From positions 1 to 36,937 of the IMG/VR virus record IMGVR_UViG_3300036820_000052: a DNA stretch of 36,937 nucleotides; one strand, 5' to 3'. Under the pieces are notes generated by a model, which searched no databases, was not told the origin of the DNA, and saw nothing but the letters and a program-made list of their open reading frames with translations. The stretch comes from a virus. Both the position numbers and the translations under genes were made by a program. Shown in pieces: positions 4,222-30,351 of the stretch; the first letter of the stretch is position 1; each line of letters begins with the position of its first letter.

Positions 4222-4275
4222 AGATGCCTTGATTATACCCCCGGCAACCGGCGTGGCCGGAGGTACTGTGGACAG

Positions 4276-9725: not shown

Positions 9726-11402
9726 CTAGAAGAAATTTTTTAATTTAATCTGACGGCCGATCTGTGTCGCAAGCGCCTGCGCAATGGCGTTGGCGCCGCC
9801 CTGGTCCAGATACGTGCCGCCTTGAATGAAAATTTGAATGCCGCCTCCGCCGCCGATGCCGCCAACTCCGGCAAGCGATGAACCACCCGCGAAGGCGGAT
9901 AGCGGGATGATTGCCTCGGGTCCCGCTTCGCCGACCATCGCGAGGGTCGGACCAGTGACGATGCCACCGGTCGCGAAGGCTTTCACGGCGCCGGAGAGCA
10001 TGCTGCCTATGGCGCTGGTGATGGCGCCTCCCGCGCTCCCTGCCTTGCTGATCGCGGTGACAATGGCCTGAATGGCCGTTTCGACGGCATTGAGCGCTAC
10101 CACGAGCACTTTGGTGAAAAAGGTTGCCAGCTCGGTGCCGACCGTGAGCATGCCGGTCAAAATGCCGACGGCGAGGGTGAGTGCGTCGGTGAGCAGTACG
10201 ACGGCGCCGAGCAGCGTCGCGCCGATAACGACGCCCAGGGCTTTGAGATATGGTTCGAGCGGCTGCAATGCCGTCCACAATTGCTCAAGCGCAGGTAGCA
10301 GCTCGCTTGTGAAATCGTCGGAAATGCTCTCCCAGGCCGCCTTGAAAAGATTGATGATGCCGGTCTTTGCGTTGAGGTCGTCGAGGAAGCTGACGATTTG
10401 AGTGTGAAACGTCACCCAGATCGCCGTCAAACCCGCGATGGCGACCAAGCCGCCCAGCAAAATTAACAGCGGCACGGAGATGACGCTAAACGCGACGCTG
10501 AGCAGCGTGACGGCAATCAACAGATACCCGAGCCCTTCAACGAGTGGCCCCGCCGTCGTCATGAGGGTTTGGAGGGATGTTTCAAGGGGCTTATTCGCCC
10601 CTATCCAGTTCAGCGTGGCGTCCTCTATCTGATTTATTATTCCCGGCAATCCGCTCTGCGCCTGCGTGAGTGGCGCGAGCTGCTGCGTGAGCTCGGTTAT
10701 TTTTGCTTTCTCCGCATCGATGTTCGCGGCGGCTTTTTCGTGCGCGGCATTGACCTCTACCGTGGTACCGGTCCACTTTTGCAACGCGGCTTCATTCTCC
10801 GCGATGGACGCCTTCTGCTGCTGTATCTGCGCGGTGAGAGTAGAGATTTTATCCTGGCTTTGTGATGCGGCGGCTATCGCGGATTCTATGCCGCCCGAGA
10901 GAAACGAGCCGATCTGCTCAAACGCGTACCCGATAATCATCTTTTTGAAATAGCCACCGAATCCTTCGCCTGCGGCGGTGCCAGCCGCCTCGCCTGCCGC
11001 TGTGGCATTCGTTACGAGCTCGGTGTCCACTTCGTTCATGGCCGCGGCCAAGCTGTCCTCCATCGCTTGTCCGGATGTCTGCCACGCGGAAGCCACCGCA
11101 GCGGCGGCCTGCTGATTGGTCTCGACGAGCGACTGTAGTAACTCGTCGGTGGTCGGGACTATCTCCTCGAAGTCCGTTGCGATGGCTTCGGGCAGTTCAT
11201 TCCATTGAGCGAGCGAGGCCTGTGCTGCGGCGATCGCCGCTTCTTCGGCCGTGCTGAAGGAAGCGTCCATGCTGGAACTCATTGTCGCGGCGGCTTCGGA
11301 TGCCTGACCGGACATGGTCTGCAACGCCCCACTGACCTCGCCTAACTGCGCGGTCGCTTCGTCTACGAGACTGACGATGATTTGAAGCTGTGTCTCGTTC
11401 AC
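9726..11402 (-). CDS. Tail tape-measure protein
   Basis: The 558-residue protein is largely helical, with coiled-coil-like segments (about 1-110 and 175-235, for example IAENEAALQKWTG) and two long hydrophobic stretches (about 285-325 and 380-440). The C-terminal motif FATGGIVTGPTLAMVGEAGP (about 465-485), followed by EAIIPL, is the standard tape-measure tail end. Tape-measure length sets tail length; at about 0.15 nm per residue it would suggest a short siphovirus tail of 80-90 nm. It directly follows the major tail gene; the pair of overlapping tail-assembly chaperone genes usually found between them was not seen. No lytic domain is visible. Confidence 0.88.
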   Translation of the reverse strand: MNETQLQIIVSLVDEATAQLGEVSGALQTMSGQASEAAATMSSSMDASFSTAEEAAIAAAQASLAQWNELPEAIATDFEEIVPTTDELLQSLVETNQQAAAAVASAWQTSGQAMEDSLAAAMNEVDTELVTNATAAGEAAGTAAGEGFGGYFKKMIIGYAFEQIGSFLSGGIESAIAAASQSQDKISTLTAQIQQQKASIAENEAALQKWTGTTVEVNAAHEKAAANIDAEKAKITELTQQLAPLTQAQSGLPGIINQIEDATLNWIGANKPLETSLQTLMTTAGPLVEGLGYLLIAVTLLSVAFSVISVPLLILLGGLVAIAGLTAIWVTFHTQIVSFLDDLNAKTGIINLFKAAWESISDDFTSELLPALEQLWTALQPLEPYLKALGVVIGATLLGAVVLLTDALTLAVGILTGMLTVGTELATFFTKVLVVALNAVETAIQAIVTAISKAGSAGGAITSAIGSMLSGAVKAFATGGIVTGPTLAMVGEAGPEAIIPLSAFAGGSSLAGVGGIGGGGGIQIFIQGGTYLDQGGANAIAQALATQIGRQIKLKNFF

Positions 11403-13702: not shown

Positions 13703-14623
13703 TCAAAAGCGAACGTCCTTGTATTGCCCAAGCACCTCGCGGTCCTCGGCATCGAGGTCGTTGCGCCATCCGGCGATCTGCGCGCCTTCCAGGCTCATGC
13801 TGGTCTGTCCGGCGAGCTGTCGGCGTTTGAAGCGGCGCACCACCAGGTTTTCGCACACGTTGGTGATATCGCCCGGAAGCCAATGCGTATTGTGGTCTTC
13901 CGGATTGGCCCAGTTGACGGGATAGCCGCCGACGTAACTGGCGCGGATCATGTTGTTGTAGATGCGCGGCAGCACGCCGTAGATGCGGATCATCCCAGAC
14001 GGATACCAAATCTGACCGCTGATAGGGTCGGTGCGCGGGTCCACCAGTTCGTACTGGTCGGGAATGAAGTCGGTCCAATTTGGGTTGCTCGGCGTCCCTG
14101 CCCTCCATGAAAACTCGGTGACGTGGATGCCGTCTGCGGCCGGGAAGACAGGCGTGTTGCGAAGTATAAGAAATTTCTGCCGCGGATTCGTAGCTGAATA
14201 CGTGTCGTTGACGTAGGTCTGTTGGACGAATGAATTTCGTCCGCATTCGTTGTTTATGAAATTCGTCGCCCAGTTGATGAGGCGGGTGAGGACGAGGTCA
14301 AAGGCTACCGGCTGGTCGATGATGTAAAGCGTGACCGACCCGGAAGCGGTCGCGTTTTGCGACATAGTGAGCGCGCCGGAGGTTATCGCCGTAAGCACGG
14401 TGTCTACCGGAATGCCGTTTCCCGCGATCGTCGTGATGCCGGTGCCGGTTATCGTTTGGCCGACGCGAGGCGTCTTTCCCGTCGGCAGTGTGACGTCCGT
14501 AAGCGTCGGACTGTCCTCGGTCGTCGTTGCTGTGATGGTGATAAGGAGAGACGGGTCAAAAAGCAGGTCCTTCACCCGCTGCAAGGTTGTGAGCGCAAAC
14601 GGGCTTGCTTGTTCTCCAGTCAT
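13703..14623 (-). CDS. Head-tail connector (gp6-like adaptor) with an inserted beta domain
   Basis: I use the start MTGEQASPF at 14623; the frame is open to 14653 with a GTG. The N-terminal helix (FALTTLQRVKDLLF) and the later FDLVLTRLINWATNFINNEC are typical of gp6-like head-tail adaptors, which form a ring under the portal. Between them (about residues 25-95) lies a Thr/Val/Gly-rich insert (VGQTITGTGI...GIPVDTVLTAI) that resembles the insert in the major tail protein. The C-terminal half contains DQYELVDPRTDPISG and YVGGYPVNWANPEDHNTH, then KRRQLAGQTSMSLEG. Stop and next ATG are three bases apart. Confidence 0.7.
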   Translation of the reverse strand: MTGEQASPFALTTLQRVKDLLFDPSLLITITATTTEDSPTLTDVTLPTGKTPRVGQTITGTGITTIAGNGIPVDTVLTAITSGALTMSQNATASGSVTLYIIDQPVAFDLVLTRLINWATNFINNECGRNSFVQQTYVNDTYSATNPRQKFLILRNTPVFPAADGIHVTEFSWRAGTPSNPNWTDFIPDQYELVDPRTDPISGQIWYPSGMIRIYGVLPRIYNNMIRASYVGGYPVNWANPEDHNTHWLPGDITNVCENLVVRRFKRRQLAGQTSMSLEGAQIAGWRNDLDAEDREVLGQYKDVRF

Positions 14624-14706
14624 ATATTCGAGGCGAGTGTCCTCGCGACGCACCCCGACGAGTGCCTACAGGGCGAAGGCAGGTCGGGATGCGGAAGCGA
14701 AAACGC

Positions 14707-15490: not shown

Positions 15491-15573
15491 AGCGAGTAGA
15501 TGTTATCGAGTAACCTATGTCCCGAATTGGTTCACCGCGAGGAATGGCGGTGGACTAACTTCGAGAGAGGGAA

Positions 15574-16821
15574 CTAGGACCCGGCCGTCTTGCCGACGAC
15601 CATCGCGCGGGGAAGCGTGAGCGTGAGAGCGTGGCGCGCCTTGTAGACGATGCCGCGCTGGTCAGCCAACGCAATCTCCTTGCCGCCGAAGCTGCCGGAC
15701 TCGAACTGGCCGACGCGCATTTCGCCCTTATCTCCGAATGCGAATGCTCGCATGTTGCCGAAGATAACGAACGGCGTGCTCGTGGTGTCCGAGAAGCCGT
15801 TGCGATTGCTGTCGCCGACCCCTGGGAGCCAGCGATTGGTGTAGACCGGATAGCCGAGGATCTGACCGGCGGGCTTGATGGGTCCGCCGCCCGGATGGTT
15901 CTCGACCGCAGGCTCCGGCTGAGCGAGGCCTGCGAACGGCAGGATGTAGTTGCCGTCTTTCGACGAGCGCAACTTCGCCCAGACCGTGCGGTGCATGTAG
16001 AACCCTGCACCGTCCAGCAGCGACTCTTCGAGGTCGCCGATCATGGCCGAACCGTCGTCCATGATTTTCATGGCCTCGAACGTGGTTTCGCCGCTCGGGA
16101 GCACGTAGCTCGTCACCTTCGTACCCGTCTCGTCCACAGTCGTGGTCGAGGGGTAGTTGAGGATGCCGAGGAACGGGTCGCCGGGGTTGGAACCGCCGAT
16201 AAAGCCCTGGCGGTCGATCATGTTGGCGAGGGCTTCGCCACCGAGGGCGAGCAGCCAGTCCGCCACATTGACCGAGGCATCCGCGAGCAGGTCGTTGCCG
16301 ACCACGAACGCGAGCTGCCACTTTTTCGCGATGAGCTGTGCCTGTCCGAAGGTGATGCCGGTCACCGGGCCTGGAGCGTCTACGCCGAGGTACGCTCCGG
16401 TAAGGAACGCCCCGGTGTAGTTCGGGACTGCGAGTTCGTCGGTCGTCATTTCCCATTTCTGGGCTTGGTTCATGATCGTGCCGACGGAAGCCGCGATGCG
16501 CATGATGGCATCCGCTATTTCGCGCGATACCAGGTAGCCGCCGCGGTTGTCCTGCTCTTCGATCAAAGCCTCATTGGCTTTGGTGTCGATGTTGAAGGTG
16601 CCGCGAGCCGCCGCTTTGGCGATCTCGACGAAATCGGTCTTCTGCTTTTCAGAGAGGCGAGTGCGGTCGAAACCGAACTCGGCACGCTCTTGGCGGAGCT
16701 CCTTGACCACCTTCTCGGCTGCAGCAAGGGAGTGCTGGTCGATGAGCGGAAGGAGTTTCTCCTTCATCGTCTCGTCAAAGGCGGCGACGTGCCACGCCTT
16801 TACTTCTTCTTTTGTAGGCAT
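15574..16821 (-). CDS. HK97-fold major capsid protein
   Basis: The 415-residue protein has an N-terminal helical, charged arm (about 1-95; MKEKLLPLIDQHSLAAAEKV and onward) that resembles a delta domain or scaffold arm, then RGGYLVSREIADAIMRIAAS (about 93-112), the typical start of the HK97 shell fold, GNDLLADASVNVADWL (about 175-190), the spine helix region, GFIGGSNPGDPFLGILNYPS (about 205-225) and MHRTVWAKLRSSKD...YILPF (about 277-297), then ILGYPVYTNRWLPG and RVGQFESGSFGG. All are strong capsid signatures. It follows the protease and scaffold genes as expected. The arm may be removed by the S78 protease. Confidence 0.93.
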   Translation of the reverse strand: MPTKEEVKAWHVAAFDETMKEKLLPLIDQHSLAAAEKVVKELRQERAEFGFDRTRLSEKQKTDFVEIAKAAARGTFNIDTKANEALIEEQDNRGGYLVSREIADAIMRIAASVGTIMNQAQKWEMTTDELAVPNYTGAFLTGAYLGVDAPGPVTGITFGQAQLIAKKWQLAFVVGNDLLADASVNVADWLLALGGEALANMIDRQGFIGGSNPGDPFLGILNYPSTTTVDETGTKVTSYVLPSGETTFEAMKIMDDGSAMIGDLEESLLDGAGFYMHRTVWAKLRSSKDGNYILPFAGLAQPEPAVENHPGGGPIKPAGQILGYPVYTNRWLPGVGDSNRNGFSDTTSTPFVIFGNMRAFAFGDKGEMRVGQFESGSFGGKEIALADQRGIVYKARHALTLTLPRAMVVGKTAGS

Positions 16822-16848
16822 AAGTAGCTGTTGAGCTACCGCGGCCGG

Positions 16849-17832
16849 TTAATTGCGCTGCGGTCCCGATTTAAGGTCCTTGTTGATCTTTTCGAGGCCG
16901 CGCGTTGCCGCGGTAGTGATTTCCCGCAAAACATCGCGTGAGAAGAGGTGAGCATCGAGCTCAACGTCCTTCTCAGAGGCGCCTCTTGCAGGCCTCGACC
17001 TTTGGTTCACGGGTGCCATCGCCGACGATTTCTCATCGTCGTCGCTGCGGCCTTCCTCCCCGTCGCCATCACCGAGTCCTCCATGGAGGCCCTCCACAAT
17101 GGCAGTTGCAGCTTTCAAATGTTCATGGGCCTCGCCCAGCTTTTCACGCGATGCGGCCGAAATGCGCGCGCCGATTTTCATCGTCAGGGCGTGCAGGACC
17201 TGCGGGTCAATGTGCGGCGCGAGATATTCCTTCAGCACCGCGATCATTTTTTCGTCCGCCTGGTCTTCTTCGCCGAAGGCTTCCTTGCACATGCCCTTGG
17301 CGATTTTGACGACGGATTTCTTGTGTGCGCGCCCGGCCGTATCGAGCTGGCCGGTAATCCAGTCGGTATGTTCGTCGGCCTGGTCGGGTCCGCCCTGAAC
17401 GCTCTTCATCATGCGCTCGTCGAATTCGCCGAGGGCCTTCTGGCTCTTGTCCTGGTAGGCGTCGTGTTCGTCGCGCAGCGCTTTCAGGTGCGGCTTTTTG
17501 TCGAACGCCTTGTTCTCTGAAGGGTCGAAGCTGCGGAAACAGGCGATCGCCTTCGCGCGGTGCATCGTATGCTCGTCTGCCATCGCGGAGCCGAGGTCTT
17601 TGAGCGCTTCGCGCATCCGGCCTTCCTTGGTAGGTTTCTTGGCAGCCTTCTTGTCGCCGTCGGCATCTTCGCCCTGGTCTTCAACCACGGCCTTTGCGCG
17701 TTCTTGGAAATCATCGAGGGCTTTGTCTATCTCGCCGGTGTGGCGCTCGTGTTCGTCGCCCAGCGCCTTGATGAGGGCTTCTGCGACGCGTGCGCCTTCT
17801 CCACGGACTTGTCGTCGTCCTGCGGCAGGCAC
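16849..17832 (-). CDS. Scaffold-like helical protein, possibly a frame-broken extension of the protease
   Basis: The frame is open from a GTG at 17832 to 16849 (327 residues) and overlaps the end of the protease gene by 106 bases. It is helical and charged, with repeated helical units such as DEHERHTGEIDKAL, DEHTMHRAKAIACF and DEHDAYQDKSQKALGEF, typical of a scaffold or head-maturation partner. Its first 13 codons (PAAGRRQVRGEGA) look non-coding, whereas joining the protease frame at KSVEKA to this frame at RVAEALIKALGDE gives a natural helix. I therefore suspect one original gene with a one-base frame break near 17800; an independent overlapping gene is the alternative. Confidence 0.65.
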   Translation of the reverse strand: MPAAGRRQVRGEGARVAEALIKALGDEHERHTGEIDKALDDFQERAKAVVEDQGEDADGDKKAAKKPTKEGRMREALKDLGSAMADEHTMHRAKAIACFRSFDPSENKAFDKKPHLKALRDEHDAYQDKSQKALGEFDERMMKSVQGGPDQADEHTDWITGQLDTAGRAHKKSVVKIAKGMCKEAFGEEDQADEKMIAVLKEYLAPHIDPQVLHALTMKIGARISAASREKLGEAHEHLKAATAIVEGLHGGLGDGDGEEGRSDDDEKSSAMAPVNQRSRPARGASEKDVELDAHLFSRDVLREITTAATRGLEKINKDLKSGPQRN

Positions 17833-18908
17833 ACCAGCGCGCCGTCCGGGTCTTTGGGATCGGTGGTCAGCACGCCGGGCGAACCGTCATCGGTCGTGCA
17901 GGAATCACCCGGCTGCGCTTCCTTGAGCGCCTTGAACTCGGGAGGGTCTTTTTCAAATTGGCGGTAATGTGACGCTAAATGCTCGTATACGGCCTTCTTG
18001 TCGCCGTCGACGTCTACACCCCCACGGGCGCCCATAAGGGCTCCCATAGCGGCTTTTACGCCGCTCCAGACGGCAGCGCCGGTCTTGGCGTCATGATGCG
18101 GCAGTTTCAGGTCGCCATAGGCCTCCGGCGGGTTGTTTTTGCTGTAAGCGAAGTGACCGGCGATCTCGCGCTTCTCCGCGTCGCTCAGGTCTTCCCAGCT
18201 CTTGTCGGTGAAATCATTGAGGCCGGGCTTTGACCAGGTGGCGCTCTCCGGCGCCTTCTCATCGCTGACGTTTTTGGGGACGTACCCGAGCGTATCCATG
18301 AAATCGAGGCCCTTGTGGCGCAGCCCGAGCATGTCCAGGCCGAGCTCCTTGCCTTCCTGAAGCGTGAGCGCGCGGCCCTGCGCGGGCCCGACGCCCTGGT
18401 TGGCGGGGATGGGCACGAATGAAAATTCGAGCAGCTCGGAGCGCGTGATGATGGAGCGGTCGTCGGGGTCGAATTCTTTGGGGATGAAGCCCACGGAGGT
18501 GGTGCAACCGACGTTGTAGCCGCTCTTGATGCCGAACTCGTACATTTTGCGCACTTGCTGCGCGAGCGGGTTGATGTCGGCGGAAAGGAAGACGCCGCGC
18601 GCGCCGAGCGCCGGTACGCCGCGGTAGCTCGTGTTGTACGTCTCAACGCAGACGCCGATGGGGAGCGAGTAGTAGTCGTGACCCCAGAGCACGATGGGGT
18701 TGTTTTTGTAGTTAGAGAGGTCCCAGCCGTCTTGCCGGACGATTTCACCGGCGCGGTCTTTCACCTCGGTCGAAATGATGACGTCGAACGTGCCGTTCTG
18801 GTCGCCCGCCTTGCGGGCCTTCTCGATCGCGCCGAGGTCGAGCGCCTTAACGCGAGCGCGGATGTCGGCGGCGAGCTCCTCGGAAAGTTTGAGCGTGAGT
18901 TGTGGCAT
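17727..18908 (-). CDS. Prohead protease, S78 (HK97 gp4-like) family
   Basis: The 393-residue protein contains GTFDVIISTEVKDRAGEIV (about 39-57), NPIVLWGHDYYSLPIG (about 70-85; the catalytic His in WGHD), and ELLEFSFVPIPANQG (about 158-172; the catalytic Ser in the EFSFVPIPAN block), which define S78 prohead maturation proteases. After about residue 200 comes a long variable region with SKPGLNDFTDKSWEDLSDAE and a C-terminal motif GDSCTTDDGSPGVL...GALVCLPQ that is shared with the small gene at 15281. The last 20 residues (HASQKPSSRR onward) look like out-of-frame sequence, suggesting the frame break discussed for the next gene. Confidence 0.88.
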   Translation of the reverse strand: MPQLTLKLSEELAADIRARVKALDLGAIEKARKAGDQNGTFDVIISTEVKDRAGEIVRQDGWDLSNYKNNPIVLWGHDYYSLPIGVCVETYNTSYRGVPALGARGVFLSADINPLAQQVRKMYEFGIKSGYNVGCTTSVGFIPKEFDPDDRSIITRSELLEFSFVPIPANQGVGPAQGRALTLQEGKELGLDMLGLRHKGLDFMDTLGYVPKNVSDEKAPESATWSKPGLNDFTDKSWEDLSDAEKREIAGHFAYSKNNPPEAYGDLKLPHHDAKTGAAVWSGVKAAMGALMGARGGVDVDGDKKAVYEHLASHYRQFEKDPPEFKALKEAQPGDSCTTDDGSPGVLTTDPKDPDGALVCLPQDDDKSVEKAHASQKPSSRRWATNTSATPAR

Positions 18909-18956
18909 ATATTTTTTTCTTAATGATACCGCCCAACACGCTCGCGCAACTCCACC

Positions 18957-18966
18957 TGTGGATAGC
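18957..18966 (-). repeat. Copy 3 of the motif GCTATCCACA
   Basis: The motif begins on the last base of the TAG stop codon of the LamG gene, in the same arrangement as copy 1 (TAG followed by CTATCCACA). Confidence 0.6.
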
Positions 18967-19805
18967 TAGAACCCAAAGAAGCTCCACAGCGTCGCGCCCG
19001 ACGGAGACGCTGGCGGGGTGCTTCCCGTGAATGGGACAGTCGTCGAAAACGTCGGGCTGCCGTGGGTTGTCAGGTTGAAGGCGTTGGAGGTGAGGTCATT
19101 CCAGTTATTGTCGAGATTGTAGTACGCGACGAGATTAGTTTCGTTTCCTACCAATTCCTGTTGGAAATTTGCATCGAGCTGCGTGGTCGTCCGGTTGGTG
19201 TTCCACACACGAACATCATCGATCAGCGCATCGCAGAAGGCACTCGCGGAGAATGACGCACCTTGCGCGGTTGAGTCCCCGGCTCCGAAGGAAAAATTGT
19301 TGTTTCCCGACGTGCTGCCATTGCCGGATGACGCGACGGTCGCCTCTGATGAGTGTGTTCCGTTTTGAATGGCCTCATATAACGTGACCGTCGAGCCGTC
19401 GTAATCGTAGACGAGGTGGTACCAGGTATTGAGGCTCAATGTTGTCGTCCAGGTCGCGGAGTTATTGGCGACGAACGATTTACCCCGGGTGGCGACGACA
19501 GAAAATGTGCCCGAGTTATTTTGATACCAGAGAATGTTGGCGACGAATGAAGAGCTTCCTGATTCCTGCTCGGCGATGATGCATTCATGATTGGTGGCCG
19601 GTGCCGATGTGAAATATACCCACGCTTCCATCGTGATGGCGCCTCCCGTGATGCCGAGATTGCTCGTCGTTATGGCCGCGTATTGAGAGGACGCCGAGAC
19701 AAACTGTCCCGAGTTTGTGTTCGTGGACGCGAAAGCGATGCTCGGCAGAAGAAGCAGCGCAACGGCGTTGAGAATAATCGCTAGATTGTGTCGTTGACGG
19801 TACAT
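18966..19805 (-). CDS. LamG-domain protein with signal peptide
   Basis: The 279-residue protein starts with a basic n-region and hydrophobic core (MYRQRHNLAIILNAVALLLL) ending in IAFA|S, a plausible Sec signal cleaved at 26. The rest is a LamG / concanavalin-A-like beta-sandwich: FVSASSQYAAI, GITGGAITMEAWVYF (about 52-66), LNTWYHLVYDYDGSTVTLY (about 125-144), FCDALIDDVRVWNTNRT (about 188-204) and NLVAYYNLDNNWNDLTSN (about 222-240). Such domains bind carbohydrates or other ligands. A mature secreted protein of this type is unusual inside a head-gene operon; it overlaps the preceding adhesin-like gene by 25 bases, so they are probably co-translated. Confidence 0.8.
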   Translation of the reverse strand: MYRQRHNLAIILNAVALLLLPSIAFASTNTNSGQFVSASSQYAAITTSNLGITGGAITMEAWVYFTSAPATNHECIIAEQESGSSSFVANILWYQNNSGTFSVVATRGKSFVANNSATWTTTLSLNTWYHLVYDYDGSTVTLYEAIQNGTHSSEATVASSGNGSTSGNNNFSFGAGDSTAQGASFSASAFCDALIDDVRVWNTNRTTTQLDANFQQELVGNETNLVAYYNLDNNWNDLTSNAFNLTTHGSPTFSTTVPFTGSTPPASPSGATLWSFFGF

Positions 19806-21031
19806 TGGAGTTGCGTCGGCGAACCGGTCGGCGTGCCAACCACGGCGGTAGTGGATGCACCTGTGGTGATGGTCGCGTTGTTAGTTATCGTCATCTTGCC
19901 GATCGTCGAGCTGGCGACGATGAAATTAACGTGGTTGATCGTAGCCGTGCCAGCCTGCCAGTAAATATCGAGGTCGAGCGTCGCGCCGGTCGGAAGCACG
20001 GAGCACCGCAAATAATTCCAGGTCTCACCGTAGCCAACTTCAATCTGTTGCGGCGATGAGGTGCCGATCCACGAAGTGGTGGTCGAAACGGTAAAACTGC
20101 GGTTTTCAATCTGTGAAATGTTCGTGCTGCCGATGGTGAGCCCAGCGCTTGCATTGAAGAGCGATGAAGTCGCAACCGCGCTCGGAACCGCCGACGAGCT
20201 CGTCTTGTTCGCCAGGACGCTGTTGGCGCTGATGGTCGCGAGTCCGAGCGTGCCGCCCGCGCCACCTACGGCCGAAAAGGTACCAGCACCGCCGCTGTAT
20301 GTGAGTCCGTTGCTCGGTGTCACTGTCGTCGTGGCGACGCTCGAAAGCGCCGCGGCGCTGTTGCCGTAGAGAAGCTGCCCCGCGGTGAAGGACGTTTGAC
20401 CGGTGCCGCCGTTGCCGACGGTGAGCTGCGAGCCACTCCAGTCCGCGTTGTTGACCGATGCGCATGTCGGGCTGCCGCTCGCGGAAACTGCCGTGAGAAA
20501 TTGACTGGAGCACGCGCTTGTACCGCCGAACTGCGTTACCTTGCCATTTCCGTCGACCGTCAATATGGCGTTCGAATAGCCGGTAAGCCACACGGTGGAC
20601 GTTGCAGTGAGCTCCGAGGTCGAGGCGTTGGTGAAATTCTGGGTCGCTGTCCACCAATTCGAATGCGCCAGGTTGAGGTCGAGATTAACCGTGCCGGTCG
20701 TCGTAACCGGATTGGTGCCGCTGATGCTGAGGGTCGAGTTGGGCGAACTGTGATTGACGCTCGTCACCGTGCCCGTCCCGCCGACCGGGAAGCCCAGAGA
20801 GGATGTCGCGGTCAGTTCATAGTTTCCGTTCGCGTCTCCGACGAGCACCTTGCCATAGCTGGGAAGGCTCGATGTGCCGGTACCCCCGCCGAATATCGGC
20901 GTGACCGTAGTGGCATGAGCAAACGGTATTCCAGAAAGAATGGCGTAAACGTAGAAGGCGCTTGCGAGAACGACGCCTCCGAGCCCAATCAAATCAACTA
21001 AGGTAGTTTCCGTTTTATTCGGGTTGAGCAT
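19781..21031 (-). CDS. Adhesin- or fibre-like protein with N-terminal membrane segment
   Basis: The 416-residue protein has a hydrophobic segment at about 12-33 (LVDLIGLGGVVLASAFYVYA) followed by AHA|TT at 40, which could be a signal peptide or an anchor. The rest is rich in Gly, Thr and Ser with repeats: GGGTGTSSLPSYGKVLVGD (about 48-66), GGTGTVTSV (about 84-92), NGGTGQTSFTAGQLLYGNSA (about 212-231), then SSLFNASAGLTIGS. Repeats of GGTG...LxxG.xxG are typical of phage fibre and adhesin beta-structures. It lies between the portal and protease modules, which is not a usual place for an exported protein. No family name is assigned. Confidence 0.7.
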   Translation of the reverse strand: MLNPNKTETTLVDLIGLGGVVLASAFYVYAILSGIPFAHATTVTPIFGGGTGTSSLPSYGKVLVGDANGNYELTATSSLGFPVGGTGTVTSVNHSSPNSTLSISGTNPVTTTGTVNLDLNLAHSNWWTATQNFTNASTSELTATSTVWLTGYSNAILTVDGNGKVTQFGGTSACSSQFLTAVSASGSPTCASVNNADWSGSQLTVGNGGTGQTSFTAGQLLYGNSAAALSSVATTTVTPSNGLTYSGGAGTFSAVGGAGGTLGLATISANSVLANKTSSSAVPSAVATSSLFNASAGLTIGSTNISQIENRSFTVSTTTSWIGTSSPQQIEVGYGETWNYLRCSVLPTGATLDLDIYWQAGTATINHVNFIVASSTIGKMTITNNATITTGASTTAVVGTPTGSPTQLQCTVNDTI

Positions 21032-21034
21032 ACA

Positions 21035-21577
21035 TCAGTAATTATAATCCGCCCTGATCTGCCCCGCGGAGTAGCTGTTGATAGTGGTGATGGTCGCGCC
21101 GCTGAGCGTGTAGTCCACACCGCCGCCGGTGAGCCGCTGCCCAGCGCCATAGAGGCGCAAAGTGCCCGACACTGGCGTGTGCGCGAGGGTCCAGCTCGTA
21201 CCCGACCCCGACACCGCTTCGTCATAAACTGGCGTGCCAGAGGGAAGCGCCGCGGCGATGTCGGAAATCATCTTTGCCGTGATGCCCAGCACCAAGCTGT
21301 AAGTCTTACCCGCCGTGTTTTTGTTGCTGGCCGTCGTGCCTTCCTGCGCGCGGGTGATGGTCAGCGTATCGCCGGTGACGTTCGTAACGCGCACGATTTC
21401 GACGTTCGGATCGTTCGCCGTGTTCGGATAGTCGGTCGAGTTCCACCAGATGAGTTGGAACGGCGTCGCTGGCAGTTTAGAGCCCTGCCCCGATTGAAGC
21501 GTGATAGCCGTCGCGGACGACGAATAGCCGGTGGATGCCTGGACTTGGACGAAATTTGCTACAGAATCGAGCGCCAT
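21035..21577 (-). CDS. Virion-associated protein, fibre-like
   Basis: The 180-residue product contains TGYSSSATAITLQSGQGSKL, EIVRVTNVTGDTLTITRAQE (about 61-80), then SWTLAHTPVSGTLRLYGAGQ (about 130-150). The unit EIVRVTxVxGDTLTIxRAQEGT is frequent in phage structural proteins (tail fibre, decoration or baseplate proteins), and the C-terminal block resembles fibre-associated domains. No signal peptide is seen, unlike the two downstream genes. It follows the HNH gene and precedes the adhesin-like gene by three bases. A virion surface role is likely, exact function unknown. Confidence 0.7.
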   Translation of the reverse strand: MALDSVANFVQVQASTGYSSSATAITLQSGQGSKLPATPFQLIWWNSTDYPNTANDPNVEIVRVTNVTGDTLTITRAQEGTTASNKNTAGKTYSLVLGITAKMISDIAAALPSGTPVYDEAVSGSGTSWTLAHTPVSGTLRLYGAGQRLTGGGVDYTLSGATITTINSYSAGQIRADYNY

Positions 21578-21642
21578 ATATTTTATTGCGGATGGTCTCA
21601 GTATAAGTCCCGGCAGAGGCTACGGCACCGGGTGTTGATAGG

Positions 21643-22188
21643 TTATAGACCGCGCCCTGTTTTCTTTCCGTGGCAAGGATTACAGAGCGTCTGAAGGTTT
21701 TTCATCCTGTTATCGTGTGTCTCCCGATACGGCACTATGTGATCAACCTGGAGAGGTGCGCCAAAGCGCCGAACGTTTGCGCGATTGGTAAGGCCGCATT
21801 GCACACACCGGTCATCATCTCGTTCGCGGACTCGGCGTTTGATCTTGTCCCAGAGCGTACCCCGCCACCAAATCTTGCCGCCTTTCCAATTGTGGTTGAG
21901 CGGCCCGACGTGCTCTTTCATCGGATTGAATTTTTTGTGCCATTCTGAGTTTTTCCGGCGCATTGCCGCGCTCTTATTCCGCTCAACTAAGAACGACCAA
22001 TCTCTGCCGGGAAAGTGATTGCCACGTACAGCGTCGTGCGCTGCTGCCGTGGTCTTGTCTGGATCGCGGAGGCCGTTGGCGTATTCAAATTTTAACTGGT
22101 GAGTGCCGTTGCAGTAATTTCGGGGTCTGAGCCGATACGGCGGTCTGCGTAATGCCTTATGACAGTAAGCACATTGTGTAGTTGCCAC
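21643..22188 (-). CDS. HNH homing endonuclease
   Basis: The 181-residue protein starts with a zinc-finger-like segment (CAYCHKAL...RNYCNGTHQ) and has a central basic region with NHNWKGGKIWWRGTLWDKIK. The C-terminal HNH core is complete: RCVQCGLTN, LQVDHIVPYRETHDN (the catalytic DH), then MKNLQTLCNPCHGKKT (Asn and His), with paired CxxC zinc ligands. It lies between the portal gene and a fibre-like gene, a common position for free-standing phage endonucleases that insert at gene junctions and may promote spread of their own gene. The ATG at 22188 is well placed; the function is inferred from motifs. Confidence 0.85.
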   Translation of the reverse strand: MATTQCAYCHKALRRPPYRLRPRNYCNGTHQLKFEYANGLRDPDKTTAAAHDAVRGNHFPGRDWSFLVERNKSAAMRRKNSEWHKKFNPMKEHVGPLNHNWKGGKIWWRGTLWDKIKRRVRERDDDRCVQCGLTNRANVRRFGAPLQVDHIVPYRETHDNRMKNLQTLCNPCHGKKTGRGL

Positions 22189-22224
22189 ACGTAAAGTCTA
22201 ACATCGGCAATAGGGGTGCAATTT

Positions 22225-24498
22225 CTAGACTGTGGATATCACCTCAGGCCGCACGTAACACCTACAGTCAGGATGGCAGGGAGGAACGTTACCTTCACCG
22301 TAGTCAGTACTGAAGAAATCGTCGCCGGTTGCGACCTCCTTACCGTCCAAATCCTGACACACAGGACAGACTCTGTCGTCTTCGGCAGTATAAAATTTCA
22401 CCGTTTGGACGACGCCGCTCTGCTGCCAGGCTGCAAGATTCGCCTGGTTGGCGGTGCGGAAACTCTCCGTCTTGGCAATGAGTCCGGCTCGGCGCTCGTC
22501 AGCGAAGCTGTAAACGCCGTCGACCGCCTGCGTCAGTTCGGTAAGGTTCGTCCCGCCCGCTTGGGTCAACTTTTCCCCGATCACCTCCTTCAGCTGCGCG
22601 AGTGTCGTCCCGGTGTAGCTCTTCGCCATGTTGGAAATGCCGCGGTCGAGCGCGTCGCGCACGCTGTCGTCGGCGAGGATGTCGCGCTGCCCGGCGCCTA
22701 TCATTGACAGAGCCGCCGCGGCTTCGTTGCGCGTGAGCGCGGTCAGAATCGGCGTCGCCAAGTCGATGGTGATACCAATCCATTCCTGCGGGTCGAACAG
22801 GTCGCCCAGCGCTTTCTTCGCGGCTGTCTTCTTGAGCCCCGGCAACTGCGCAATGGCTTCCAGCACGTCGGCCTTTTGTCGACGGTTAATGGCGATGAAT
22901 ATTTTTTGGAGTTCGTCCTGCGCTCGATCGCTGCGATCGGCAAACCGCTTCCAGTGGTCCATGTAATCGGCGTGGGTCAGCTCGTTGAAGCTTTTGACCT
23001 GGAACTCCGGCGCGCGGTCGAGCTGCTTCTTGAACGCTTCGAGGAGACCCCGGCGCATCGCGCCTACCCCGCTGTTGGCGCTTTTACCGCCGATACGCAG
23101 CCGCACCGATCTTGCCAGCCAACCTTCAGCCGTGCGGCTCTTGGCGAGCTGCGGCGCGATCTCCTCGCCTTCAGGCTTGTCGGTCTGTCCTGCTGGCTCC
23201 ATCGCTGTGGGGCGCATGAGCTGGTCGCCGCCGTCCACCGGCCCGAGCCCCATGTACGTCTTGCGCGCCTCGTTCTGCGTCATGATCGGCATGTTGCCGA
23301 CGGCCGCCTGCATCTCTTCGGTCCGGAATTCTTTGTCCTCCGGCACGGGGTCGATGAACGTCAGGTACAGGTCGTCGCCATAGCGCGGGACCAGGAACTC
23401 GTTGAGGTAAGAGACGACGAGCAACATCTTCGGCTTGATGGTGCGCTTGCTGAAGACGTAGTCGGCCGTCTCCGCCGTGGCGCGGTTCGTATCGCTCTCG
23501 GCCGTGCCGAGGATGGTTTTGGAGACGCGGAACGCCGCCAGGATGCGGTCGCGCGTGGCGTCGGTGAGCTTGGCGAAGTCCATGTCGCGCTGGCTGACGC
23601 CCGCATTCTTGAGGTCGACGCCCTTGGGGAGCACCGGCGTCTTGTGCGCGTTCTCGACGCCCGCATACGCGTCTTTGAAGCCCTGCCGGATGCGCTCGAT
23701 CTGGCCTTCGACATTCGTCTGCGTCGCGAGGTAGAGCCCGACGCTGGCGCCGTTGAGGAAGAACTTCCGGTTGTACTCCATCGCGTAATTGTCGCTGTCG
23801 ATCCACGTCGGAATCGTCTGCGGAATGCCGATGCCGACGAACGGGTCGCCGGGGTCCGGATATTTGATGTGGAGGATTTGGTACGGCTCGAAGCGGAAGA
23901 CTTTCCCGTCGTAGGTAAATTCGTAGTGGCTGAGCTTGTATGGGAAGCTGCTCTTGTTGAGCTTCAGCCGCATGGAGCCGGGATTGAGCGGGTAGATGGC
24001 GCGAGGTTGGCTGCGGTCGTCTTTCACGCCATCCAGCAGCCAATAGCAGTTACCGGTAAGTTCCAGGTGCGCCATCGTGACGTACTTCAGCTCGATGCCG
24101 GTCATGTGCTCGTTGACGCCGTCCAGCAGCGTCAGAAGTGGGTGGTCCTCCTGCTCCTCGTGCTCGTCGCCGTTCACTTGGTAGAGCCGGAGCTGGACGT
24201 TCGCCACTTCGCTGGCGATGGCGTTCACCGCCGCGAAGGTCCAACCGGTGAAGTTGCCCATGGCCTTGGCGGCGTCGACATGCTTGGCGCCGGTGGGCTT
24301 GTAGATGGCGAGCGGGTCGTCCCCGAGCGTCTCGGACTTCTCGCTTATGTTCGGGATTTCTGCCTTGCGGCTGCCGCGCCGGTCGCGCAGCACTACGCGG
24401 CCGTCTTCAGTAAAGCCCTCTAGCCGATGGGAAGGCTGCGTCGTCGTCGAATGTGGGTTGGTGGTGCGCTGGAAGACCCGATTAAAAAATTCCGGCAT
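22225..24498 (-). CDS. Portal protein fused to a MuF head-morphogenesis domain
   Basis: The 757-residue protein has two parts. Residues about 60-440 are the phage portal: GNFTGWTFAAVNAIASEVAN, PLNPGSMRLKLN, FEPYQILHIKYPDPGDPFVG and IPTWIDSDNYAMEYNRKFF are standard HK97-type portal motifs, then VPEDKEFRTEEMQAAVG. Residues about 600-757 contain a SPP1 gp7/MuF-type domain: SFADERRAGLIAKTESFRTA, then KFYTAEDDRVCPVCQDLDGK with CPVC, and NVPPCHPDCRCYVRPE with a Cys/His cluster. The two are normally separate genes; a fusion implies the head-morphogenesis protein is attached to the portal ring. The TAG stop follows TATCCACAGTC, a near copy of the recurring motif. Confidence 0.88.
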   Translation of the reverse strand: MPEFFNRVFQRTTNPHSTTTQPSHRLEGFTEDGRVVLRDRRGSRKAEIPNISEKSETLGDDPLAIYKPTGAKHVDAAKAMGNFTGWTFAAVNAIASEVANVQLRLYQVNGDEHEEQEDHPLLTLLDGVNEHMTGIELKYVTMAHLELTGNCYWLLDGVKDDRSQPRAIYPLNPGSMRLKLNKSSFPYKLSHYEFTYDGKVFRFEPYQILHIKYPDPGDPFVGIGIPQTIPTWIDSDNYAMEYNRKFFLNGASVGLYLATQTNVEGQIERIRQGFKDAYAGVENAHKTPVLPKGVDLKNAGVSQRDMDFAKLTDATRDRILAAFRVSKTILGTAESDTNRATAETADYVFSKRTIKPKMLLVVSYLNEFLVPRYGDDLYLTFIDPVPEDKEFRTEEMQAAVGNMPIMTQNEARKTYMGLGPVDGGDQLMRPTAMEPAGQTDKPEGEEIAPQLAKSRTAEGWLARSVRLRIGGKSANSGVGAMRRGLLEAFKKQLDRAPEFQVKSFNELTHADYMDHWKRFADRSDRAQDELQKIFIAINRRQKADVLEAIAQLPGLKKTAAKKALGDLFDPQEWIGITIDLATPILTALTRNEAAAALSMIGAGQRDILADDSVRDALDRGISNMAKSYTGTTLAQLKEVIGEKLTQAGGTNLTELTQAVDGVYSFADERRAGLIAKTESFRTANQANLAAWQQSGVVQTVKFYTAEDDRVCPVCQDLDGKEVATGDDFFSTDYGEGNVPPCHPDCRCYVRPEVISTV

Positions 24499-24556
24499 AC
24501 TTGCCGAAATTGTAGCACCTAGCCTAAGACCTAATAGCTCGGTGGGGATAGTAGCA

Positions 24557-25231
24557 TCAATGCTTCAGCAATGCCGCCAACTGTGGCATCCCAAAATAAA
24601 TGAGAAGAACAATGACCAGGATAATCCCCAACGGTCTCAACAAAGCTACTAGCATTGTACGCATCGTAAACTCGAAGGCCGCGTGACCGTGCCGAAAGAT
24701 AGACGCTGAGGTAAATTCTCCCTTTAACTGAGTAGGATGCATTTTCCGTAGCCATTGAATTCTAGTTTTTTCCCATAACGTTGGATCGGCATCCATGCTC
24801 GTCACATAGGAATACGCGACCAGGTCTTTGAGGTCCCGGGATAGGCGATCAAAAAGCTGAAAGGCAGTATATTTTCCGATCCGGATGTAAATTTGGTCCT
24901 CAAAAGGCCGTCCGAAATCAGAAACGACCGGATAAAGTACAACGGCCACCACGCCATTAGGACCGAATGAATAGAGCAATGTTGCACCATTTTCGGCAGC
25001 GGCATTCCCGTCGACTGTTTGCCGGAACATGCTTCGGAAGCCGAATCTCGCTTCCAATGTGTCTCGACTGGTGGCCGATACGTAAAAGCTAAAGACATTT
25101 TCAAGCGCACCAAATCGTGAGATAGAACGGACGATTCCTGGAATCGCGGGTATGGCGAGCTCGACAAAATAATCAAACTCCATCCTCGCCAAAGATAGTT
25201 TTTCATAAGATTTTCTGAAAGGATGAGTCAC
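24557..25231 (-). CDS. Membrane protein between portal and terminase, unknown
   Basis: The 224-residue product (GTG start at 25231; ATG 25183 is an alternative) is soluble-looking for about 185 residues (FVELAIPAIPGIVRSISRF, YSFGPNGVVAVVLYPVVSD) and ends with a membrane segment of about 25 residues (LLRPLGIILVIVLLIYFGMP) and a short tail. Its base composition is more AT-rich than the packaging genes around it, and it lies between terminase and portal genes that are usually adjacent, so it is probably an inserted accessory gene. Superinfection exclusion or another lysogenic trait is only a guess. No family is recognised. Confidence 0.65.
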   Translation of the reverse strand: MTHPFRKSYEKLSLARMEFDYFVELAIPAIPGIVRSISRFGALENVFSFYVSATSRDTLEARFGFRSMFRQTVDGNAAAENGATLLYSFGPNGVVAVVLYPVVSDFGRPFEDQIYIRIGKYTAFQLFDRLSRDLKDLVAYSYVTSMDADPTLWEKTRIQWLRKMHPTQLKGEFTSASIFRHGHAAFEFTMRTMLVALLRPLGIILVIVLLIYFGMPQLAALLKH

Positions 25232-25288
25232 GAAGGCCCCCGACCAAGTGAAATGGTTACCAACTAGGATACGATAGGCTGCGAAGTT

Positions 25289-26737
25289 TCAAATATACTG
25301 CACCTTCTGTTCCTCGATCCCGTCGCCAATGACGCCTAGAATAAGGTAAACCAGCGCATCGACTGCGTCGTCGTGTTTTTCGATACCGAAGCCCAGTAGC
25401 TGGGTCAGCAACCGTTCGCATCCGGCCCTCGGAAACATCACTGTCCCATTTTTGATGTAGCGCGCAGCGACGCGCAGCCGCGCCCGCTTGTCCTTGATCG
25501 GGTGCATCCCTTGGACACTGAAAGCGCGCCTCTCCATCTCCTCGATTGCCACCTGCTGATACGCCACCGCTTCGACAAAGAACTCGCTGCTCATATTCGA
25601 GGCGCGGCGTACGTTGTCGAGCGTGTCCATCGTCTCGGTGAACGTCATGTGGCGAATGATCGGATTACCCTGGATGTAAATCTGCGTCTTGCCTTCCGGC
25701 CACGCGACCTCGGCGCTCACGATGGCCGTGTAGTCGGCGCTCTCCTTCGTGCTGATGGCTAGGTCGACGCCGTGCGCCAGGTAGTTCCCTTCGTCGAACG
25801 GCGGTTCATCCCAGTAGTGAATGTCCTCGGCTCGAACGTCCTGGCCTTCCTCGGGCACGACCTGGAGCAGCATTTCGCGGCGGAAGCCGATGTCGCCAAG
25901 CTCCTCGCGCTTGCGGTCAATCGCCTCCTGCGTCGGGTATTTGGCCTTCCACGTGCAGCGGTCGATTTCCGGCCCGTCACCCTCGCGGATGAGCGGAAAT
26001 TCCAGCACCTTGAAGATGCCGGTGTTCTTCAGCCGCGCCATGAGTCCATCGGTATGCAGCCAGTTCCCGACGACGATTGCCCTGCCCTTCTCGTCCACGG
26101 ACGGCAGCACCTCGCCCCGGTACCAGCGGTCGCTTTTATCGCGGTTTTCCTGGGTCCTGACCCAATCGAGCCCTTCCACGTCGTCGGAAATGATGAGAGA
26201 TGGCCGGTGCTGGCGGTGCTTGAGCCCGCGCACCTTCTGCCCGCGGCTACGCGCCAGGATGCGCACGCCGTTGTCGAGCACGCAGTTCATCTTCTGCCAG
26301 TCTTCGTCCGACTCCAGCGTCGGCTCCGGCCGGGGATCGTCAATCCGGCGATATTTCAGGTGCCCGTAATCGCGCAGGATGAGGTCGTTGTTGCGCAGCT
26401 CGTGCTGGACGCTCGCCGCGTTGATGCTCGCCTGCCCCGTCGTGTCGGCAAGCAGGATGATGAAGGGATAAAGGTCCGGGTGTTCCAGCGCGGCCCACAG
26501 CGGCAGCGCCAGCGACGCCAGCGTCGATTTCGCGCTGCCGCGGAAGCCGATGACTTCGAGCCGAGTGAGCGTAGCGTTCTCTAGCCCCTGGCACAGTTCG
26601 TCGAAGAAGTCGGAAAAGTCGGACGGGAAGTGATGGGGGAGGTAGGTAAGGCAGAAGCCCTTGAGGGTTTGGGCCGCTTCGCGCCGCAAATCGGCGTCGT
26701 CTACAAGACGCTCAAGCTGTAGCGTCTCCGGTTGCAT
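25289..26737 (-). CDS. Terminase large subunit
   Basis: The 482-residue protein is the DNA-packaging motor ATPase and nuclease. VIGFRGSAKST (about 62-72) is the Walker A motif, LIISDD (181-186) the Walker B, and DPRPEPTLES lies between. The C-terminal nuclease domain has AHGVDLAISTKESADYTA (about 321-338, with Asp325) and EKHDDAVDALVYL (about 453-465), the metal-binding acidic residues of terminase nucleases. It overlaps the upstream gene by 26 bases, and is followed by the membrane-protein gene at 24557 rather than directly by the portal. The motif set is complete, so the gene looks functional. Confidence 0.93.
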   Translation of the reverse strand: MQPETLQLERLVDDADLRREAAQTLKGFCLTYLPHHFPSDFSDFFDELCQGLENATLTRLEVIGFRGSAKSTLASLALPLWAALEHPDLYPFIILLADTTGQASINAASVQHELRNNDLILRDYGHLKYRRIDDPRPEPTLESDEDWQKMNCVLDNGVRILARSRGQKVRGLKHRQHRPSLIISDDVEGLDWVRTQENRDKSDRWYRGEVLPSVDEKGRAIVVGNWLHTDGLMARLKNTGIFKVLEFPLIREGDGPEIDRCTWKAKYPTQEAIDRKREELGDIGFRREMLLQVVPEEGQDVRAEDIHYWDEPPFDEGNYLAHGVDLAISTKESADYTAIVSAEVAWPEGKTQIYIQGNPIIRHMTFTETMDTLDNVRRASNMSSEFFVEAVAYQQVAIEEMERRAFSVQGMHPIKDKRARLRVAARYIKNGTVMFPRAGCERLLTQLLGFGIEKHDDAVDALVYLILGVIGDGIEEQKVQYI

Positions 26738-27026
26738 GTAGAGCGAGCCACAATCGGGCTACGGCTTCAATAAGGGTCGAGCCCTCGCCCCAAAGAAATC
26801 CACTTTTCTTCGCATACCACTTCTTAAGTGAGAGAGAACGATTGACAAAAAGCAGATCATCGCCGCACCCCTCGATGAATTCTTCAAGGGTGGGCTGGGA
26901 AATACCGTGATTCAAATTGGCCTGCGACCATCCGACGAGGCCGTTGGACATGGACAAATAGCCGCCACGACCAGTTTGCGGAAACCCCGCGTCCTTCAAT
27001 TGCTTCGCGAGTTCGTAAGGAATCAT
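26712..27026 (-). CDS. Small phage protein of unknown function
   Basis: The 104-residue protein begins MIPYELAKQLKDAGFPQTG and contains PTLEEFIEGCGDDLLFVNRS and STLIEAVARLWLALHATGD. The order (AKxLKDAGFPQ, then xPTLEELIEACG, then EAVAxLWLALH) is that of a very common family of small proteins in phages and prophages, whose function is unknown. It overlaps the terminase gene by 26 bases. No ribosome binding site is obvious at the ATG; an 11-base inverted repeat lies just upstream (27034-27079) and may control its expression. Confidence 0.7.
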   Translation of the reverse strand: MIPYELAKQLKDAGFPQTGRGGYLSMSNGLVGWSQANLNHGISQPTLEEFIEGCGDDLLFVNRSLSLKKWYAKKSGFLWGEGSTLIEAVARLWLALHATGDATA

Positions 27027-27098: not shown

Positions 27099-27632
27099 TC
27101 ATAGCATCCTTTTTCTCAAAAAGAGGCGGAAACCCCATTCCACAATCTGAATGGCGCTAGCAAGGATACTAACCAATAGCAGGGGCCAGTAACCTGCGTC
27201 AGCCAGTTTATATGCCCTACTAAGGATTTCTCCTTGCATTACCTGCTCTTTCGATTGCGTCAACACAAACGAATACCTCTCATCCTGATGTAGGGGGTAT
27301 TCTTTTGATCCTAGCTGCACAATACCCGAGACAACGCCTTCGCTGTTGGATGAGCAGCAGTAGTTCTGAAAGTAAGTAATAGCCTCCGTTTGAGGACGAA
27401 CGCCCAATTCTAAATTCATCCCTTTTGCAGTCGGCAACAAAGCATGAAATTCAACATACGCCCGGCCAATGCCGTCGACCTTTACGAGGTCGTGCGGCGA
27501 TACGATCGTGCCACTGCTGCCAGGACCGGCCGTTATCGTCACTTCCGCCAGGTAGGTTGATTGGGAGAACAGAACCAAGGGGCCGGATATCGAAACGACG
27601 CCAGCCATCGGCAGTAACCAGGTCAACTTCAT
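27099..27632 (-). CDS. Membrane protein of unknown function
   Basis: The 177-residue product has an N-terminal hydrophobic segment (about 5-27, WLLPMAGVVSISGPLVLFS), a soluble central part of about 115 residues with a CC pair (YCCSSNSEGVVSG), and a C-terminal membrane segment (about 148-166, YWPLLLVSILASAIQIVEW) followed by a basic tail (RLFLRKRML). This suggests a periplasmic domain held by two membrane helices. It is AT-rich and lies between the putative small terminase and the terminase large subunit, so it is probably an accessory insertion. No known family is recognised. Confidence 0.65.
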   Translation of the reverse strand: MKLTWLLPMAGVVSISGPLVLFSQSTYLAEVTITAGPGSSGTIVSPHDLVKVDGIGRAYVEFHALLPTAKGMNLELGVRPQTEAITYFQNYCCSSNSEGVVSGIVQLGSKEYPLHQDERYSFVLTQSKEQVMQGEILSRAYKLADAGYWPLLLVSILASAIQIVEWGFRLFLRKRML

Positions 27633-29973: not shown

Positions 29974-30351
29974 CTATCGCGGAAAATTGGCGCCAATTGC
30001 TTTCGATGCAAGAGCGAGTATGCCGCCACCCAGTCCGCATATAAGCGGGATGGCGTTTGTGCTGTAAGCACCGAGTAACCAATAATAAATTCCGGAAAAA
30101 AGAAGAAGGACCAAACCTCCCCAAATTGGGAGAAAAAAACACAAGACACCGGCACCCATAGCTAAATAAGGTAGATTTACCCCTAGAGCGGTGTAGCTCG
30201 GACTAGCCACCTGCCCGACAGGTCCCGTCAACAAAATAATGTTCATCACGAATCGTTCGTAAAGGCCACCGGCAATTCCGAGGAGTCCCCCTACGATTGA
30301 GATAAACTTTGCGGCTTTAAGCCGCGTGTTGACCGAGTGTTGAATACTCAT
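29974..30351 (-). CDS. Polytopic small membrane protein
   Basis: The 125-residue protein has a basic N-terminus (MSIQHSVNTRLKAAKF) and three or four hydrophobic segments: about 15-30, 62-75 (YLAMGAGVLCFFLP), 77-95 (WGGLVLLLFSGIYYWLLGAY) and 99-118 (AIPLICGLGGGILALASKAI). GGAGG lies six bases upstream of the ATG, a strong ribosome binding site. The sequence is AT-richer than its neighbours. Superinfection-exclusion proteins often look like this, but no family can be named. Confidence 0.65.
   Translation of the reverse strand: MSIQHSVNTRLKAAKFISIVGGLLGIAGGLYERFVMNIILLTGPVGQVASPSYTALGVNLPYLAMGAGVLCFFLPIWGGLVLLLFSGIYYWLLGAYSTNAIPLICGLGGGILALASKAIGANFPR

Follow-up and report, generated by a model that had tools for sequence, protein, structure and literature searches.

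The window analyzed here is the whole of virus record IMGVR_UViG_3300036820_000052 (36,937 bases), whose late genes lie on the minus strand. Between its portal and head maturation protease genes, it encodes a leaderless fiber adaptor (P0003), directly followed by a fiber-like protein with an export-type leader (P0002) and by a LamG protein with a signal peptide (P0001). By computation, the adaptor and the exported fiber-like protein are coupled across relatives, the leader is conserved, the cysteines of the mature proteins are even in number, and the adaptor is akin to the N-terminal domains of tail fibers. Judging from their sequences, P0002-type and P0001-type proteins are very likely exported, and we consider it an evenly balanced proposition that the module forms a two-part fiber system in which the exported distal part joins a virion-bound adaptor at lysis. 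The wider reading, which we regard as slightly less probable, is that a widespread group of tailed phages makes its fibers via the host Sec system, so that cleavage, disulfide bonding, and storage of the fibers would take place in the periplasm and the cytoplasm-assembled virions would receive them only at lysis. Tailed phages normally produce and assemble the parts of their virions in the cytoplasm. If true, a conserved fiber family whose members have signal peptides and paired cysteines would violate this rule, and virion assembly would be divided over two compartments of different redox state.

Export-type leaders in the module

An initial annotation of the window had proposed that three genes between portal and protease may form one exported cassette. 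Three open reading frames (ORFs) are indeed present there on the minus strand: P0003 (21035..21577, 180 amino acids [aa]), P0002 (19781..21031, 416 aa), and P0001 (18966..19805, 279 aa), with a gap of 3 bases between the first two and an overlap of exactly 25 bases (19781-19805) between the last two. P0003 does not fit such a cassette, as it has no leader and is a relative of tail-fiber N-domains, while export of the second and third proteins is probable from leader conservation and cysteine parity. The N-terminal membrane segment that had been ascribed to P0002 is a real hydrophobic N-terminus; it reads as an export-type leader (residues 1-40, 20912..21031, minus strand; rule-based caller and aligned leaders) with an Ala-x-Ala-type site predicted at AHA^TTV and an n-region of the low-charge class. 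In P0001, the classical signal peptide and LamG domain that had been described were both recovered. Its 26-residue leader (19728..19805, minus strand) has a predicted cut at AFA^STN, received a strict Sec-type call, and starts within the end of P0002, and its LamG_3 domain, of sugar-binding type (PF13385, residues 40-209, 19179..19688, minus strand), scored E 3.3e-17 and 63.5 bits against a curated cut-off of 27.6. When N-terminal hydrophobicity was scored as the best 12 of the first 51 residues over 34 window ORFs, P0001 ranked highest (2.84) and P0002 reached 2.30; three further ORFs, judged on hydrophobicity alone, exceeded 1.7 (29974-30351, 2.32; 27099-27632, 1.96; 24557-25231, 1.85). The first two of these are small ORFs outside the late operon, with N-terminal hydrophobic stretches equal or near to that of P0002.

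Portal and adaptor searches, in which the best 80 of 86 relatives were kept, gave 90 portal-bearing loci (counting the window), which form 77 clusters at 95% portal identity; L001-L004, second copies of the same contigs (L023-L030), and L032, which has no portal, were left out. The portal-protease interval holds an adaptor in 34 of these clusters and other genes in 25; portal is followed directly by protease in 15, and 3 are truncated. The expectation that the genes come and go as a unit was therefore borne out in part: the interval varies, the unit is mostly adaptor plus exported fiber, and LamG varies. Two loci (L008 and L036) end within the adaptor, which leaves 32 readable adaptor clusters, and in 31 of them the next gene (gap of -35 to +51 bases) encodes a leader-bearing fiber-like protein. 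Leaders were called by our own rule, not SignalP, as strict, low-charge, hydrophobic without site, or none. The gene after the adaptor was called strict in 28 clusters, low-charge in 3 (P0002 included), and without a leader in 1 (L015); an Ala-x-Ala-type motif precedes the mature start in 31/32, and the n-region is positive in 28/32. Control ORFs of at least 150 aa from the same clusters (n = 654) gave 10 strict, 9 low-charge, 15 hydrophobic without site, and 620 none. By eye, at least 6 of the 10 strict control ORFs are genes beside the protease that the rule had placed outside the interval.

The hydrophobic N-terminus could instead be a segment retained in the virion, for example for membrane contact at entry, and not an export signal. 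The leaders of P0002, L016/L125, and L020/L127, which have no net positive charge, would be compatible with this. The Ala-x-Ala-type motifs and positive n-regions of nearly all family members argue against it, as does a cysteine parity that is that of exported proteins (see below), and we regard a retained segment as very improbable.

Cysteine parity

In exported proteins of bacteria, the number of cysteines tends to be even (PMC7678975). In our test of this property, leader features served only for the choice of the set and of the cut. For the final count, 68 complete proteins following short adaptors (defined below) were cut at the predicted site and dereplicated at 85%, and L073 was kept outside the fused-fiber control. 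Mature first exported fibers after short adaptors had even numbers in 37 clusters and an odd number in 1 (38 clusters, 2 to 30 cysteines); mature P0002 has 4 cysteines and mature P0001 has 2 (75 and 191). Further strict-leader ORFs of the interval, including the first fibers of adaptor-less loci, were likewise mostly even (25 even, 1 odd, and 2 zero in 28 clusters). The controls gave 9 even, 14 odd, and 2 zero for fused fibers (25 clusters) and 67 even, 70 odd, and 13 zero for portal, protease, scaffold-position, and major capsid protein (MCP) ORFs (n = 150). An earlier count, with the leader cut at residue 30, gave 34 even and 3 odd of 37; it covered 30 of the 32 post-adaptor genes (leaderless L015 and incomplete L006 left out) plus 7 others. 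Since these even numbers are unlike those of the controls, the exported proteins probably leave the cytoplasm, for which cysteine parity is the best evidence. Together, the leader conservation and the cysteine results make what is seen in P0002 and P0001 more than chance.

The adaptor and its fused relatives

The N-domain of P0003 (about residues 1-110) is of the tail-fiber N-terminal type and matches tail-fiber PHROGs (phrog_8469, tail fiber, E 4.9e-10). Its predicted model (pLDDT 86.8) had its best fold match in 8jov_1 (Z 12.7, 28% identity over 109 residues; Foldseek E 2.9e-4), chain 1 of the portal-tail complex of Ralstonia phage GP4, named Putative tail fiber protein. The sequence profile of P0003 reached this chain only at E 0.064, and the next fold matches were other phage structural proteins (Z 9.0-10.4). 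An attachment domain, in the form of the N-terminus of a known fiber family, was found in P0003 and not in P0002. The initial annotation had held that conserved virion parts among the same genes of related phages would speak against its cassette; such a role is indicated for P0003, by fiber homology only, and the evidence for P0002 is suggestive. The adaptor of L059 had no match in the phage collection.

The C-domain of P0003 (about residues 114-180) resembles fiber-anchor and neck domains of several phages (Z 5.6-7.0), a likeness that is weak when taken alone. In five clusters, the head-tail connector carries this domain at its N-terminus as a fusion (L011, 21925; L013, 19388, with 57% identity over 63 residues; L014, 20864; L017, 9158; L042, 16680), which ties the adaptor C-domain to the virion neck. 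Where the connector was readable, the fusion occurs in 5 of 25 clusters without a C-domain in the interval versus 0 of 13 with one there; the connector of the window (13703..14653, minus strand; phrog_442, E 3.8e-5) does not carry it.

The adaptor-profile scan, of which the best 80 of 138 relatives were kept, extends to loci without a P0005-type portal and yielded 68 adaptor clusters, with adaptors of up to 215 aa taken as short; this count excludes nine adaptors with an open end and six after which no next ORF could be read. After a short adaptor, the next gene has a leader in 38 clusters (35 strict) and none in 2. After a long fused adaptor, it has a leader in 4 (1 strict) and none in 24 (Fisher 3.7e-12, where p is only a guide because clusters share ancestry). 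Six loci, L128, L151, L177, L193, L199, and L200, combine a short adaptor and a leader with no P0005-type portal. In L130, one of the two short-adaptor exceptions, a transposase-like ORF (4051-4476, by eye) sits right after the adaptor, at the place expected for the exported fiber. The coupling of P0003 to an exported fiber and its fusion to long proteins elsewhere suggest virion equipment rather than a conversion module.

Composition of the probably exported proteins

In an alignment of 30 exported fibers (L015 included), the mean share of the top residue in well-filled columns was 0.54-0.65 in blocks 25-149 and 0.32-0.45 from 300 on. Conservation thus peaks directly after the leader and the remainder is variable, the pattern of an attachment end and a variable end, and a GGTGT-like motif usually stands soon after the leader site. 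Pfam domains of the polysaccharide deacetylase, GDSL esterase, and glycine-rich kinds were each seen once among the 30. P0002 itself gave a weak tail-fiber match (phrog_31660, E 0.0041) and three weak matches in a scan of sequences, and the N-terminus of the L086 exported fiber had no match in the phage collection. Among P0002 homologues, Peptidase_S74 was found in L128 only; in that protein (1335-2900), after S74 comes a hydrophobic stretch at the C-terminus that could hold the precursor at the membrane until self-cleavage.

The second exported gene comes in several kinds, LamG among them; Pfam identified LamG in the window and, of 9 second exported genes scanned, in 2 (L074 and L088), whose copies also have leaders. 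P0001 had no match in the phage collection. When P0001 was considered as a captured host gene, matches were found in 5 of 149 genomes, the best with 35-36% identity over part of the length.

The initial annotation favored a surface or lysogenic-conversion cassette, in which the exported proteins would stay on or in the envelope and block superinfection or alter surface binding. The export that it presupposes is probable from the leaders and cysteine parity, and LamG recurs among the exported genes (window, L074, and L088). In addition, integrase (PF00589) is present in 19 of 34 records searched (18 above cut-off), so much of the family is temperate, and the interval is empty in 15/77 clusters, meaning that the genes are dispensable in some relatives. 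However, no C-terminal membrane segment was found in any of 38 exported fibers by our own rule, which overlooked the hydrophobic C-terminal stretch of L128; a search of the same 38 for envelope anchors gave one lipobox-like match, located within a leader, and 3 weak internal segments. The tight pairing with a fiber adaptor inside a morphogenesis operon also argues against a conversion cassette, as do, less strongly, the lack of PF00589 in the window record, which is possibly a fragment, and the lack of sigma-70-like promoters in 15500-26800, a weak result given an average of 3.1 in shuffles and a scan limited to this promoter type. A conversion role is possible, and we consider it less likely than a fiber system.

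The exported proteins may also be soluble lectins or fiber proteins that act off the virion; set free at lysis, they might serve as decoys, for instance, or act on polysaccharides. The lack of C-terminal membrane segments and the single occurrences of polysaccharide deacetylase and GDSL domains would fit such a released helper. So would nine adaptor-less clusters (L010, L011, L013, L017, L018, L043, L045, L065, and L087, among the 25 with other genes), which have a strict-leader ORF in the interval, as none of the 15 direct portal-protease clusters does. The pairing with an adaptor in 31/32 clusters and the conserved mature N-terminus, as expected for an attachment end, speak against it, and a released helper appears less probable than a conversion cassette.

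Proposed assembly of a split fiber outside the cytoplasm

For the two-part fiber system that we prefer, the following steps are proposed. P0003, made without a leader, would be built into the virion like the fibers that share its N-domain, perhaps near the neck. P0002, as the distal fiber-like part, and the LamG protein P0001 would be exported late in infection by means of their Sec leaders, lose these leaders, and fold in the oxidizing periplasm with their cysteines paired. Lysis of the cell would then bring virions and soluble exported proteins together, and the fiber would dock, through its conserved mature N-terminus, either on the adaptor or on a neck domain equivalent to it. The use of export would be explained if these proteins require disulfide bonds. 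Inferred steps in this scheme are expression late in infection, cleavage in the cell, folding in the periplasm, docking at lysis, and the binding of a receptor or polysaccharide. The fibers and tailspikes of T4 and P22 can join particles in extracts, which makes late docking plausible.

Several observations weigh against this scheme: (i) P0002 is itself an atypical member, as its n-region is not net positive, no Pfam family was found in it at E 0.01, neither S74 nor another known fiber domain was detected, and its structure prediction reached a pLDDT of 36; many fibers are without S74, so its absence is not decisive. (ii) Shuffled fiber N-termini still gave 873 strict calls in 6,400, owing to composition. 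(iii) The nine adaptor-less clusters mentioned above indicate export without need of an adaptor, and, conversely, no leader-bearing partner accompanies the adaptor of L015 or the 111-aa one of MW202566. (iv) L073, one of the 31 and with a strict leader, has both a fused 978-aa adaptor protein and a leader-bearing fiber, so a split fiber with its missing half exported is too simple a description there. (v) A fusion/fission pair was sought through the GGTGT module, by pattern, in the fused proteins examined, and none was found.

If true, the two-part system would explain how phages use disulfide-stabilized fibers and would allow post-lysis assembly to be tested simply. Should the exported proteins prove to act at the cell surface instead, a fiber adaptor with a conserved exported partner would still be a new phage trait.

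Host and lifestyle

L033, a relative that has the module, lies inside a 232-kb contig of an Acidobacterium metagenome-assembled genome (MAG). By reading of ORFs, an integrase-like ORF flanks it on one side, and envelope-type genes lie beyond. A YicC-like ORF on the contig (named by reading) is the only match in that genome and fits the family, 14 of whose 15 other genomes have relatives with 52-59% identity. From these sequences, L033 is apparently a prophage of Acidobacteriota, and by analogy the window phage may have a host in the same phylum. With at most 8 candidates scored per genome, the exported-fiber profile had matches in 2 of 396 genomes of L033's phylum, one being L033's own, and weak matches in 10 of 379 genomes of the Kaiserbacteria phylum. 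A Patescibacteria host, considered for matches on contigs of Ca. Kaiserbacteria and Ca. Peribacteria, was rejected: L034 and L038 are without the adaptor module, L040 is too short, and L033 lies in the Acidobacterium MAG.

Genomic context of the module

The module is bordered upstream by a portal with a C-terminal MuF domain (22225..24498, minus strand; PF04860, E 7.1e-58; PF04233, E 6.2e-15; phrog_2662, E 6.6e-105) and downstream by the head maturation protease (17727..18908, minus strand; phrog_80, E 1.2e-15). The two flanks named by the initial annotation are thus borne out, and the same interval also holds an HNH endonuclease that had gone unmentioned (21643..22188, minus strand; PF01844, E 2.3e-9), possibly a homing gene. 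HNH matches lie between portal and protease in 8/77 clusters, window included, and the window has a second HNH gene (9099-9719); the junction looks as if it were a homing site. The three module genes were also said to be AT-richer than their neighbors, which is true of all three and slight except in P0001. The GC contents of P0003, P0002, and P0001 are 0.606, 0.592, and 0.546 versus 0.616 for the portal and 0.629 for the protease, and GC at third codon positions is 0.76, 0.72, and 0.68 versus 0.82. The starts of the protease (18908) and the adaptor (21577) both stand in an AT-rich AAATATATG context with no obvious Shine-Dalgarno sequence.

The other features of the window are the terminase, a late gene (25289-26737, minus strand), a scaffold-position ORF with no family match (16849-17832, minus strand), the MCP (15574-16821, minus strand), and weakly identified tape measure (9726-11402, minus strand) and endolysin (3163-4221, minus strand) genes. 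The protease ORF shares 106 bases (17727-17832) with the ORF after it, which is in a different frame, and in L013, L014, L016, and L020 the protease match consists of two same-frame blocks with the middle part missing. In a distant portal clade, the protease is immediately preceded by a protein of about 180 aa that has a hydrophobic N-terminus and a GGDF(A/S)GG motif (L033, 17632-18186; L028, 13883-14437; L070, 18023-18571; L095, 17091-17651; L096, 16228-16788), and between it and the fiber lies a leaderless family of 112-114 aa.

Comparison with known systems

In fold, P0003 is like the putative tail fiber protein of GP4 (8jov_1; structure paper doi 10.1016/j.jmb.2023.168258, as cited in PMC13243795), and the N-termini of tail fibers or tailspikes of Burkholderia phages BcepMigl, DC1, and BcepIL02 and Klebsiella phages RothC/D match P0003 or a short adaptor relative by sequence. 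In RothD (640 aa), BcepMigl (424 aa), and Itty13 (378 aa, annotated as hypothetical), the N-domain heads a longer leaderless protein, and the neighbors checked have no comparable leader; in MW202566, it makes up a 111-aa protein without a leader-bearing neighbor. In the window, by contrast, it lies in a 180-aa protein that is followed by a separate, leader-bearing fiber-like protein. P0001 stands above the Pfam cut-off among the Laminin_G_3/concanavalin-A-like lectin proteins; by eye, a leaderless LamG-like protein occupies the same place in L055, unlike P0001 and the leader-bearing copies of L074 and L088.

Full-text searches aimed at exported tail fibers, with papers judged by title and start of abstract, turned up no description of such a system; preprints and most subscription papers fall outside this scope. 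Phage endolysins with signal peptides are known, among them Lys44 of Oenococcus phage fOg44, as are SAR endolysins (PMC6116005). These are likewise tailed-phage proteins sent through the host Sec system, but they are lysis enzymes, while here fiber-like proteins are paired with a fiber adaptor. An exported product encoded among morphogenesis genes is also a feature of proteins of the lambda lom type, lom being a lysogenic-conversion gene in a late operon of a temperate phage. The proteins described here differ from that type in their fiber-like make-up, in having no C-terminal anchor that was found, and in their coupling to a fiber adaptor. What would be new here is the exported partner of the fiber adaptor, as a variation on the fiber module.

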